In this document: piece by piece, positions 21,551 to 27,424 of the stretch
Layout: every line of letters begins with the position of its first letter
How positions within the stretch are numbered: position 1 is the first letter of the stretch
Source: Methylobacter sp.
GTDB taxonomy: Bacteria > Pseudomonadota > Gammaproteobacteria > Methylococcales > Methylomonadaceae
Direction of reading: 5' to 3'
NCBI GenBank assembly: GCA_030653175.1
Contig: JAURZV010000054.1
Location: forward strand, 1-64,000
Length of the DNA stretch: 64,000 nt
The notes under the pieces: generated by a model
What the model was told of the DNA's origin: nothing
What the model saw: only the letters and a program-made list of their open reading frames with translations
The model's database searches: none
Translations under genes and position numbers: made by a program

Positions 21551-21911
21551 ATGAAAACAGTAAGAATAAGTATTGATCCTGAAAATCCGGCATCGCTGCC
21601 CGAAGGTAGAGTGGATTTCAACCGTTTAGACGCTACTACCGAACGGGATATTGCCGTTCAGCAACACATGGATGAAACTAATGCCATGTTAGACATCGAA
21701 GGCCGGATGGGGTATTCACCCCATCCGTAATGTTTTCCTTGCCTTTGCCTAACCATAGGCAACTCCAACACTTATCGCTAAACGTTTGGGACGGGGTACA
21801 TACCCCGTCCCGCTTAGAGAGCAAGGAAAACGCCGTCCAACAGGCGCGGCGAAAGCATTATTAAAAATCCTCGACAAAGCGCCTGAAGCGGCTTTGGCTG
21901 CCTTGGAATGA
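21551..21911 (+). pseudogene. XRE-type antitoxin gene split by a hairpin repeat
   Basis: The 5' part reads PENPASLPEGRVDFNRLDAT and TERDIAVQQHMDETNAM, matching the start of HTH antitoxins in which DAEAMQDAARFARRVR would follow. The frame then enters a repeat (21703-21830) and stops at 21730. After it, PTGAAKALLKILDKAPEAAL is the usual C-terminus of the same family, ending at 21911. The HTH core is missing, so insertion came with a deletion. Confidence 0.6.
21703..21830. repeat. Two-hairpin repeat inside the broken antitoxin gene (family D-like)
   Basis: GGATGGGGTATTCACCCCATCC (21705-21726) and GGGACGGGGTACATACCCCG with TCCC (21788-21811) form two perfect hairpins; TTTTCCTTGC and GCAAGGAAAA form an outer pair. 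The layout resembles the 120-bp repeats after uvrB, including AACGTTT before the second hairpin. Confidence 0.7.
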
Positions 21912-22033
21912 AATTAACTCGAAACACGCCGCCATATTAAAGCATGGGAATGTTGGGCATAGACTGTATGCCCTACAAGATTGTAAAAACGAAAAATTAG
22001 TGAGATAAGGTTATGTCGTTTCTACGTTACTCG

Positions 22034-22501
22034 TTATAAAGGCAAGCGATACAAAGGAATTGCAAATGACGGTAAGCCTAAACGTTTTGCTGTTGATGAT
22101 GCATATTCTCGCCAATAAGGCCATACGTTAAAACCCACATTGTAATTTGCAAACTCAGTAATTGCTTCATCAGGCAATTCTTCAAGCATTGCATAACAAG
22201 CAGAAAATGTTGCAATTACTTCAACGACAGTGCCGCTTTCTTTTTCGTCATCAGGCAATCCTTTCGGTAAGGCTCTAAAGCCTGCTACATAGCGAAAAAC
22301 AATTAAATTCATGTGTTCATGGTCAGCACTTTCTCTAGAGATTATTCTTGAATCTTTAATGAAATGTTTGAATTGAATTTCAATCGGCGTTACTTCTGCT
22401 AAAGGACAAAAATCATCTTTAGTTTTTATTTCCGCAGAATGAAGAAATATATCCTGTATGACTAATCCTTTGTGTGCTTGTTGAACTAACTCCTTATTCA
22501 T
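22034..22501 (-). CDS. SecB-like chaperone of a toxin-antitoxin-chaperone module
   Basis: A 155-aa protein with the SecB pattern: an N-terminal strand region, VVEVIATFSACYAM (the FxCEVxxxGxF strand of SecB), then FNVWPYWREYASSTAKRLGL, matching NILFPYARExITxxxxRGxFP of SecB, and a terminal hydrophobic FAIPLYRL. It is the third gene after a HigB-like toxin and an HTH antitoxin. The ATG at 22501 overlaps the antitoxin TGA (ATGA), so this start is preferred to 22522. In known TAC systems such a SecB protects the antitoxin by binding its C-terminal extension. Similarity was judged by motif only. Confidence 0.7.
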   Translation of the reverse strand: MNKELVQQAHKGLVIQDIFLHSAEIKTKDDFCPLAEVTPIEIQFKHFIKDSRIISRESADHEHMNLIVFRYVAGFRALPKGLPDDEKESGTVVEVIATFSACYAMLEELPDEAITEFANYNVGFNVWPYWREYASSTAKRLGLPSFAIPLYRLPL

Positions 22502-22881
22502 GCCGCTTCTGCTTTTTGCCAATCTGGATAATCTTCTGCAATAGGCTCGGCTTTACTCACAATTCGATAACACAAAGGAAGCAAAACCACAGTTGAGTTT
22601 TCCCACTGATAAGAATCAGTGCCATAATCGACAGCTTTTTTCTTGGGCGTAAATTTAATAGACACTTCCGCATCCAGCGCAAATGCAATGTCTGATAATG
22701 ATCTAAGCGTCATATTCCTAGAACCTCCAAGCATCTGAGTAATAAACGATTTTGATTTATTTAGCAATCTTGCCAATTTTACCTTAGAGATATTTTCATC
22801 TTCCATTGCTACAAGAATATCTTCAGTAACGTTCATGATAAGACTTTCACGCGCATATACTCTTTCTTCGTTGTTCATCAT
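22498..22881 (-). CDS. HigA-like HTH antitoxin with C-terminal extension
   Basis: A 127-aa protein. An HTH domain spans about residues 20-75 (LARLLNKSKSFITQMLGG, then MTLRSLSDIAFALD). It is followed by some 50 residues with an aromatic and hydrophobic patch (SYQWENSTVVLLPLCYRI), the kind of exposed extension that in TAC antitoxins is the chaperone-addiction segment. The gene starts one base after the toxin stop and ends in an ATGA overlap with the chaperone gene. It probably neutralises the toxin and represses the operon. Confidence 0.75.
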   Translation of the reverse strand: MMNNEERVYARESLIMNVTEDILVAMEDENISKVKLARLLNKSKSFITQMLGGSRNMTLRSLSDIAFALDAEVSIKFTPKKKAVDYGTDSYQWENSTVVLLPLCYRIVSKAEPIAEDYPDWQKAEAA

Positions 22882-22882
22882 A

Positions 22883-23263
22883 TTATTCCTCTATTTTTCT
22901 CCAGTTATTGCATACCTTGTCAATATCTGACTTTTTCAATTTATCGAAATCTTTATAGATGTAATGACTTATGTAATAGGTATTTGGTGTATTTTTAGAC
23001 AACCAGATATACGCCCTTATGGGTATTTTTTTTAATGCTCTAAAGTGTGATTTATCTGGCAACTCCCCTTCCTGGGGAAAATTCTCATTAGACATCCTGT
23101 CACCATCGCCAAGCCTCTTAATGATTGCCGTCATTTGAGCCTTGTATTGAGTGCGCCTGTTTTTGGGATGCTTAGCTATTGCATGATTAAAGCTTTCCAC
23201 AGCGCCTTCACAATGGATAATGTGAAATTTACTTCCTTTGTAATTTTGCATAAACAAGCTCAA
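22883..23263 (-). CDS. HigB/RelE-like toxin of the TAC module
   Basis: A 126-aa basic protein of the RelE-like mRNA interferase type. The core HFRALKKIPIRAYIWLS and TYYISHYIYKDFDKLKKSDI resembles the central strands and C-terminal segment of HigB-like toxins (FxALKxxxRxYF...YYISHxIxKK). Toxin first, antitoxin second, chaperone third is the order of the HigBA-SecB modules described in Mycobacterium. Catalytic residues cannot be assigned with certainty. Confidence 0.68.
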   Translation of the reverse strand: MSLFMQNYKGSKFHIIHCEGAVESFNHAIAKHPKNRRTQYKAQMTAIIKRLGDGDRMSNENFPQEGELPDKSHFRALKKIPIRAYIWLSKNTPNTYYISHYIYKDFDKLKKSDIDKVCNNWRKIEE

Positions 23264-23358
23264 CCTGCAGTTAACTTATATATTAACCTTTATTTGTAAG
23301 AGATGAAATAGCGTAGTTATAAAAGGTGGAGAAAAAAGCTGCCCCACCCTATAAAAAC

Positions 23359-24540
23359 TTAAATCGCCTTCTTAATCCGCTCCAACGCATTTTGCAGATT
23401 AGCCATGCTGGTGGCTATCGAAATCCTGATATGCCCAGGCGTGCCGAACGCGGAACCGGGCACTAACGCAACACCGGCTTCTTCGATCAAATATTCGGAA
23501 AAACCAAGGTCGTCATTGATGTTATCCAGTCTGGCAATCAGCTTTTCCACGTTAGGGAACACGTAAAACGTGCCGTCGGTTTCAAGGCAGTCAACGCCGT
23601 CTATGCTGTTGAGTTCGGCAACGACATAATCATGGCGCTTTTTAAATTCAACGCACATGTCGTCGATAAAGCTTTGATCGCCGGTTAGCGCGGCTTCGGC
23701 GGCATGCTGTGAAATCGAGGTCGGGTTGGAGGTGCTTTGCGACTGGATAGTGGTCATCGCCTCGATCAAATCCGCAGGCCCTGCGGCATAACCGATACGC
23801 CAGCCGGTCATCGAATAGGCTTTGGATACGCCGTTCATGACCACGGTGCGATCATAAAGCTCAGGATGCGCGTTCAAAATGTTAACAAACGTGCCTTTCT
23901 TCCAAAGGATGTGCTCGTACATATCATCGGTGGCGATGATGATGTTGGGAAAATCCTTAAGCACGTCGCCCAGCGCTTTAAGCTCTTCCAGACTATACGC
24001 AACGCCGGACGGGTTGGACGGGCTGTTGATAAAGATTAACCGCGTTTTATCGGTAATGGCCGCGCGCAACTGAGCAGGCGTTATTTTAAAATTTTGCTCC
24101 TGCGTGGTTTCGATAATAACCGGCACACCGTCCGCCAATAAAACCATGTCAGTATAGGAAACCCAAAACGGCGCTGGAATGATGACCTCGTCGCCGTGGT
24201 TAAGCAGGGCCTGGGTCAGGTTGAATGAGCTTTGTTTGCCGCCGCAGGAAACCAGAATCTGCTTGGCTTGGTAATCAAGACCGTTATCGTTCTTGTACTT
24301 GGCGATAATGGCTTTTTTCAGGCTGGGTATGCCGTCGACTGCGGTGTATTTGGTGTAGCCGTTCTCGATAGCCTTAACCGCCGCAGCCTTGATATGATCC
24401 GGGGTATCAAAATCCGGCTCGCCTGCGCCCAGGCCGATAATGTCTTTGCCCGCAGCGCGCATTTGAGCGGCCCTGGCGGTAATCGCCAACGTAGGTGATG
24501 GTTTAACTGCCTGGACTCTGTTAGAAAGTTTGATGCTCAT
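23359..24540 (-). CDS. aspC: Aspartate aminotransferase, class I/II (type Ib)
   Basis: A 393-aa PLP enzyme that interconverts aspartate and 2-oxoglutarate with oxaloacetate and glutamate; type Ib enzymes can also use prephenate. Visible are GAGEPDFDTPDHIK (about 38-51), the tyrosine loop PAPFWVSYTDMV, NSPSNPSGVAYS, the PLP lysine in NGVSKAYSMTGWRIGYAAG (about 235-253) and the arginine region PGHIRISIA. Full length for the family. Monocistronic and divergent from uvrB. Confidence 0.9.
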   Translation of the reverse strand: MSIKLSNRVQAVKPSPTLAITARAAQMRAAGKDIIGLGAGEPDFDTPDHIKAAAVKAIENGYTKYTAVDGIPSLKKAIIAKYKNDNGLDYQAKQILVSCGGKQSSFNLTQALLNHGDEVIIPAPFWVSYTDMVLLADGVPVIIETTQEQNFKITPAQLRAAITDKTRLIFINSPSNPSGVAYSLEELKALGDVLKDFPNIIIATDDMYEHILWKKGTFVNILNAHPELYDRTVVMNGVSKAYSMTGWRIGYAAGPADLIEAMTTIQSQSTSNPTSISQHAAEAALTGDQSFIDDMCVEFKKRHDYVVAELNSIDGVDCLETDGTFYVFPNVEKLIARLDNINDDLGFSEYLIEEAGVALVPGSAFGTPGHIRISIATSMANLQNALERIKKAI

Positions 24541-26701: not shown

Positions 26702-26737
26702 CCCATCGCATCGGCGTTTGATTATGATGGGTTTCGG

Positions 26738-26857
26738 CCCAAGCGGGGCGGGGTTTGCAACCCCGCCCCTAACGTTTCCGCAGCGCCTAAGCAAAGTGGT
26801 TACAGTTAATCAACGCAAAACGTTTCGGACGGGGCAACATGCCCCGTCCGGCTTGGG
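26738..26857. repeat. Family D repeat, copy 1 (120 bp)
   Basis: Ends CCCAAGC and GCTTGGG. Inside are two hairpins, GGGGCGGGGTTTGCAACCCC with GCCCC, and GGACGGGGCAACATGCCCCG with TCC, joined by about 60 bp containing AACGTTTCCGCAG. Two more copies follow at 26897 and 27161. Confidence 0.85.
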
Positions 26858-26896
26858 AATACGCATGTAAGCATTTCCAATGCGGGGCAAGGGTTG

Positions 26897-27424
26897 CCCA
26901 AGCGGGGCGGGGGTTGCAATCCCGCTCCTAACGTTTCCGCAGCGCCTAAGCAAAGTGGTTACACTTAATCAACGCAAAACGTTTCGGACGGGGCAACATG
27001 CCCCATCCGGCGTGGGGTGGATGAGGAGTCCATATCCTTTTATCAAGACATCATGCTTAACCCTTCAAAAACCGCAAAGTCTCATGTTCAACATCAACTT
27101 TTATGGTATCCCCGGCGACAAAATCGCCTGCCAGTATCTTCTGAGCCAACGGATTTTCTTCCCAAGCGGGGCGGGGTTTGCAACCCCGCCCCTAACGTTT
27201 CCGCAGTGCCTAAGCAAAGTGGTTACAGTTAATTAACGCAAAACGTTTCGGACGGGGCAACATGCCCCATCCGGCGTGGGGTGGATGAGGAGTCCATATC
27301 ATTTTATCAAGACATCATGCTTAACCCTTCAAAAACCGCAACGTCTCATGTTCAACATCAACTTTTATGGCATCCCCGGCGACAAAATCGCCTGCCAGTA
27401 TCTTCTGAGCCAACGGATTTTCAA
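26897..27424. repeat. 264-bp tandem duplication: family D repeat plus clpB 3' end
   Basis: 26897-27160 and 27161-27424 are near-identical units. Each has a 120-bp family D repeat (26897-27016, 27161-27280), 40 bp of spacer and the last 34 codons of clpB. The right unit includes the true clpB end; the left unit is a detached copy with a few base changes. Confidence 0.85.

Follow-up and report, generated by a model that had tools for sequence, protein, structure and literature searches.

Three small genes lie on the minus strand at positions 22034-23263 of the window (the whole stretch of DNA analysed here, 64,000 nucleotides of a Methylobacter sp. contig from a genome of about 4.0 Mb). The question they raise is whether they belong together and, if so, what kind of system they encode. 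The initial annotation described them as a toxin-antitoxin-chaperone (TAC) module. In this study, that description was borne out by the gene order, by the conservation of the partners and by a PDB profile match of the third protein to Rv1957, the TAC chaperone of Mycobacterium tuberculosis. We are confident that the trio is a HigBA-like TAC operon of type II. It is a well-supported TAC that is new as a divergent sequence lineage and belongs to a kind already known. SecB-associated TAC systems were said to be best known from Mycobacterium, which is true historically; however, TAC modules have been documented widely in Proteobacteria (PMC4257090), and their occurrence here is therefore expected.

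In the proposed mechanism, the RelE/HigB-fold toxin would stop translation, most likely as a ribosome-dependent mRNA endonuclease, and the HTH antitoxin would bind the toxin and probably repress the operon. The antitoxin tail would be held by the dedicated SecB-like chaperone, which by analogy may be tetrameric. The chaperone could be drawn off by clients that appear under stress or by a freshly synthesised structural protein of a phage; loss of the chaperone would then lead to loss of the antitoxin and release of the toxin.

Gene organization of the operon

All three open reading frames were found where they had been described (Table 1), and they are intact both here and in another species of this genus. 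The spacing also agrees with the initial annotation: with an antitoxin start at 22881, the toxin and antitoxin genes are 1 bp apart, and the ATG of the chaperone gene overlaps the antitoxin stop codon as ATGA. The toxin, antitoxin and SecB-like chaperone genes thus show the adjacent layout of a TAC operon, and their transcription as one unit is predicted. The same three-gene order recurs, with sequence conservation, across many other genomes and prophages, which indicates that the trio did not arise by chance. The closest named relative of the trio is found in a Methylobacter assembly, where the chaperone is 97% identical.

Table 1. Positions of the operon genes, of neighbouring features in the window and of related loci.
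Feature	Position	Strand	Details
Toxin gene	22883-23251	minus	122 aa from ATG at 23251; stop ends at 22883
Toxin, alternative start	TTG at 23263	minus	gives 126 aa
Antitoxin gene	22498-22881	minus	ATG at 22881 or 22878, giving 127 or 126 aa; stop ends at 22498
Antitoxin domains			Cro/C1-type HTH at about residues 15-75, then a variable tail of about 50 aa
Antitoxin C-terminal tail	22498-22653	minus	candidate segment for chaperone addiction (ChAD); contains W92 and another W close to the C-terminus
SecB-like TAC chaperone gene	22034-22501	minus	ATG at 22501; 155 aa; motif VWPYWREY
Imperfect palindrome GTTAATATATAAGTTAAC	23270-23287	minus	just 5' of the toxin gene; direct reading
Variable site	21700-23360		between glyoxalase-like and aminotransferase genes; matching L133 (1745-3402) and L134 (1873-3923)
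Short frame	21800-21915		reads ...GAAKALLKILDKAPEAALAALE
Hairpin CGGATGGGGTATTCACCCCATCCG	21704-21727		followed by a short T run
Head-to-tail repeats	26732-27422		downstream of uvrB
Alternative third gene	L083:3786-4187, L097:3817-4230, L101:3790-4188		in viral relatives of the toxin-antitoxin pair
Trio in Escherichia phage PhiR70_1	L071:2982-4504		MqsR-, MqsA- and SecB-like

With up to 2 mismatches allowed, the palindrome GTTAATATATAAGTTAAC occurs once in the window. Inverted-repeat and promoter scans did not single it out, and the result of the promoter scan was at chance level. It is a speculative candidate for an operator in autoregulation.

Genomic site and mobility

The operon lies at a variable site, flanked by a glyoxalase-like and an aminotransferase gene, for which two matching loci were identified (Table 1). 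Within the genus, the site was compared in three genomes. One of them, G012, carries the operon at the same site. Between the same flanks, G020 has a GTPase-domain gene with a neighbour instead of the operon, and G010 has a lipoprotein-like gene and small HicA/HicB-like frames, both of which were read by eye. Between the window and G012, dS was 0.02-0.12 in the three operon genes and 0.39-0.48 in the flanking aminotransferase and uvrB genes, values that rest on small counts (15 synonymous changes in all) and on two flank genes lying on one side. The lower divergence of the operon suggests movement or recombination between lineages whose flanks had already diverged; thus, the operon has probably been moved horizontally.

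Other features were observed around the operon. The short frame with GAAKALLKILDKAPEAALAALE resembles, on visual reading, what is left of the C-terminus of a further HTH antitoxin. The hairpin CGGATGGGGTATTCACCCCATCCG is strong and perfect and, with the T run behind it, resembles a terminator at the end of a small frame. In the repeats downstream of uvrB, a 262-nt unit is present twice (97%) and a 126-nt unit three times.

Possible role in phage defense

TAC modules have been linked to phage defense, and the module studied here may act mainly in anti-phage abortive infection, with a phage structural protein titrating the chaperone and the toxin stopping translation. This reading is a claim about the role of the TAC module and is compatible with its identification as a TAC. 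By analogy with other systems such a role is plausible, and we put it somewhat short of an even chance. CmdTAC is a characterised capsid-sensing system that responds to the major capsid protein of T4 (PMC11618068), and MqsRAC has been tested as a defence system (PMC9519451). HigBAC of E. coli (Mets et al. 2024) is reported to sense the major tail protein of lambda and to be triggered by it (as cited in PMC11980606). Within our own data, modules with the toxin-antitoxin kind of the window occur in viral contigs, chaperone relatives are present in viral contigs and in two phage records, and the operon sits at a site with exchangeable cargo. A trio of MqsR-, MqsA- and SecB-like genes lies directly downstream of cI in the lambdoid PhiR70_1 prophage. 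On the other hand, no prophage was recognised in the near neighbourhood of the operon, the TAC of M. tuberculosis has been described as stress-responsive, and a variable site would fit any mobile toxin-antitoxin module.

Lambda keeps its exclusion genes in the region directly after cI. The trio of PhiR70_1 is annotated as hypothetical, and its members are candidate superinfection-exclusion genes.

The toxin has a RelE/HigB fold

The toxin matched no toxin family in Pfam, NCBIfam, PADLOC or PHROGs, and no match to HigB, RelE, gp49 or ParE family models was obtained at E up to 10. A search of 21 members of its family against Pfam and NCBIfam gave no such toxin-family match at E up to 1, and the profile of the family had no match in the PDB. 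The assignment is therefore made by fold and not to a named Pfam family. The predicted structure (pLDDT 94.7) shows the RelE/HigB (BECR) fold. In VIA-align, the model was matched to the toxin of a pneumococcal toxin-antitoxin system (6af4/6af3, Z 13.9), which we take to be a HigB, and to HigB1 of M. tuberculosis (Z 12.9); nearly all of the structural matches listed were RelE, ParE or HigB toxins. The best Foldseek E-value was only 5e-3. The initial annotation had called the toxin HigB-like, a name that suits its fold, whereas no sequence family stands behind it. In the alignment of the 21 members, the invariant residues were E61, F70, K74, R79, Y81, W83, S95, H96, K100 and L105.

From the modelled structure, the toxin is most likely a ribosome-dependent mRNA endonuclease. 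Because its family has no sequence match to a named one, it is the fold by itself that points to mRNA cleavage, and the fact that the same fold includes gyrase inhibitors (ParE) counts against this assignment. ParE toxins do appear among the matches of the model, at Z 9.5 and lower. However, the HigB-type structures clearly come first, and their alignments, unlike those of the top ParE matches, take in the C-terminal helix as far as residue 122. It is thus unlikely that the toxin is a ParE-like inhibitor of DNA gyrase instead of an mRNA endonuclease.

The antitoxin and its tail

The HTH domain of the antitoxin scored 22.3 bits against Pfam HTH_26, just over the cut-off of 22, and HigA structures were among the PDB matches of the antitoxin family profile. 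With a Cro/C1 (Xre) HTH domain beside a HigB-like toxin, the protein has the features of a HigA-type antitoxin. PADLOC matches to PDC-M64B/C and PD-Lambda-2_B were also found; membership in these systems was rejected, as the matches lie mainly on the HTH domain.

The segment VVLLPLCYRI of the tail had been proposed as a possible addiction segment, but conservation does not support this proposal: in a 95%-identical copy SCYQI already stands in place of LCYRI (two positions differ), and the segment is not retained in other relatives. W92, by comparison, is shared by at least 90% of the 29 antitoxin family members, and the rest of the tail is variable. Nearly all dereplicated antitoxins adjoining this chaperone family carry at least one tail tryptophan (37/38), and 30 of the 38 carry at least two. 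In the antitoxins beside this chaperone, tryptophan accounts for 3.5% of tail residues versus 0.7% in the HTH part. These patterns suggest that W92 and the second, C-terminal tryptophan are better candidates for the addiction segment than VVLLPLCYRI. In the chaperone-addiction tail of M. tuberculosis HigA1, aromatic residues matter: Y114 is the most critical, W108 is among those on which the tail depends, and W137 is auxiliary (PMC5105189, PMC6377645). The tryptophan-containing tail probably makes the antitoxin prone to aggregation and proteolysis unless it is held by the chaperone, but the conservation of a tryptophan-rich tail could have another cause, such as toxin binding. Toxin-antitoxin pairs lacking the chaperone were considered as a control in the tail comparison; those from viruses proved to have another third gene, and no true two-gene toxin-antitoxin control was found.

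The third gene encodes a SecB-like chaperone linked to toxin-antitoxin genes

In a Pfam search, the window chaperone did not reach the curated score and gave no match to PF02556 (SecB), and 11 of 47 members of its family matched Pfam SecB at E up to 1, the best at 0.0016. Rv1957 came first in a single-sequence search of the PDB (E 0.07) and was the sole PDB match of a profile of the 47 relatives (E 4.2e-8). The motif V-W-P-Y-W-R-E-Y is invariant in the family alignment. The predicted structure (pLDDT 93.1) was matched by Foldseek to 5mtw_C with an E-value of 4.2e-8 and to E. coli SecB with about 5e-6. Rv1957 was also the best structural match of the model (Z 14.9 over 136 residues, 2.5 Å), followed by the SecB proteins of E. 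coli and Haemophilus influenzae (Z 13.2-12.7). Two functionally uncharacterised streptococcal proteins came next at Z about 8.5, and unrelated structures scored about 5. The initial annotation had taken the 155-aa protein to be SecB-like and had named a lack of structural similarity to SecB as the finding that would overturn this; in the model, that similarity is present. Both the PDB profile search and the predicted structure thus give the third protein the fold of SecB, and its sequence lies outside the curated Pfam family. One canonical SecB is encoded elsewhere in the same genome, which suggests that the chaperone of the TAC operon is an extra, specialised copy.

The genes next to 88 distinct relatives of the chaperone were investigated. 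In 86 of these cases the chaperone gene adjoins toxin-antitoxin or antitoxin genes, which are of four kinds: 35 have the toxin and antitoxin kind of the window, 20 have MqsR/MqsA, 14 have HicA/HicB and 7 have another pair of a RelE-like toxin and an HTH antitoxin, and 10 have an antitoxin match only. Two chaperones have no detected toxin-antitoxin neighbour, and for one of them just 36 bases of upstream sequence are available. Neighbours were checked on examples with Pfam, which confirmed MqsA, HicA and HicB; the MqsR-like and the second RelE-like toxins were named by context, as the tested examples gave no Pfam match. The full-length chaperone relatives listed from plasmids are mostly annotated as SecB, and two that were read in context adjoin MqsA antitoxins. 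SecB-like genes have joined several toxin-antitoxin families (PMC4257090, PMC5105189), and the linkage found here agrees with this. An ordinary two-gene HigBA-like module lying beside a stand-alone SecB-like export chaperone, with the adjacency having no regulatory meaning, is highly improbable: the TAC chaperones examined to date can take the place of E. coli SecB in export, which makes an export role possible (PMC6377645), but the start-stop overlap with the antitoxin gene, the linkage in 86/88 relatives across four kinds of partner, the genome's own canonical SecB and a nearest solved relative that is a TAC chaperone and not an export SecB all argue against it.

An alternative third gene in prophages

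In nine dereplicated viral relatives of the toxin-antitoxin pair, this chaperone is absent and a gene of 132-140 aa takes its place (Table 1). Phages HK639 and mEp237 are among the carriers of this alternative third gene, which in them lies downstream of the repressor region. In a midpoint-rooted tree, the toxins of the nine form one group (support 100/98) among SecB-partnered toxins, and a single change of partner is thus sufficient to explain them. A tail tryptophan is present in 3 of the 9 antitoxins with the alternative partner, and two are present in none (Fisher p 5e-5, with the nine representing one clade and one event). When the alternative third protein was compared with the chaperone family by profile, the probability was 1.2% and the E-value 0.044, and searches of PDB and Pfam revealed no relative. 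The protein is possibly an alternative chaperone or sensor. As a tentative and rather doubtful extension, the HigBA-like pair could be an exchangeable core for different "sensor" third proteins, namely the SecB-like protein here and a seemingly unrelated one of about 135 aa in a single prophage clade. The antitoxin tail would change to fit, and the third gene and tail would jointly set the phage protein or stress to which toxin release responds.

These results add a TAC lineage from methanotrophs that is divergent and has structural support. Automatic annotation could overlook such an operon, as neither Pfam nor NCBIfam includes the toxin family and the chaperone is missed by Pfam SecB. The results also provide a comparative set, in which a single chaperone family is combined with four kinds of toxin-antitoxin pair, and one kind of pair with two types of third gene. 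This set can be used to test the tail determinants of chaperone choice and the idea that TAC chaperones are general phage sensors.

Comparison with known TAC systems

The operon shares the order toxin-antitoxin-chaperone with the TAC of M. tuberculosis (HigB1-HigA1-SecBTA, Rv1955-Rv1956-Rv1957). The chaperone of that system is the nearest solved relative of the window chaperone by both profile and fold, its HigB1 is among the best fold matches of the window toxin, and both systems have an HTH antitoxin with two tryptophans in the tail. However, identity in the structural alignments is about 18% for the chaperone and about 10% for the toxin, the window toxin is unmatched by sequence, and no likeness of the tails was noted on informal comparison. 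E. coli HigBAC, as described in PMC11980606, likewise consists of a HigB-type toxin, a HigA antitoxin and the SecB-like HigC. An E. coli TAC HigB is placed in Pfam gp49 (PMC11980606), whereas no Pfam toxin family is matched by the toxin studied here or by its relatives. At the DNA level and with blastn sensitivity, the window module had no match in 5,426 E. coli genomes, and nothing was found in a search for the window toxin in plasmids.

CmdTAC (PD-T4-9) has the same three-gene order with a SecB-like chaperone, and one chaperone relative matched the PADLOC PD-T4-9_C model weakly (E 0.003). The toxin CmdT is an mRNA ADP-ribosyltransferase (PMC11618068), in contrast to the RelE-fold toxin of the window. 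The MqsRAC and HicAB-SecB TAC modules contain the same chaperone family as the window operon and combine it with different toxins and antitoxins.
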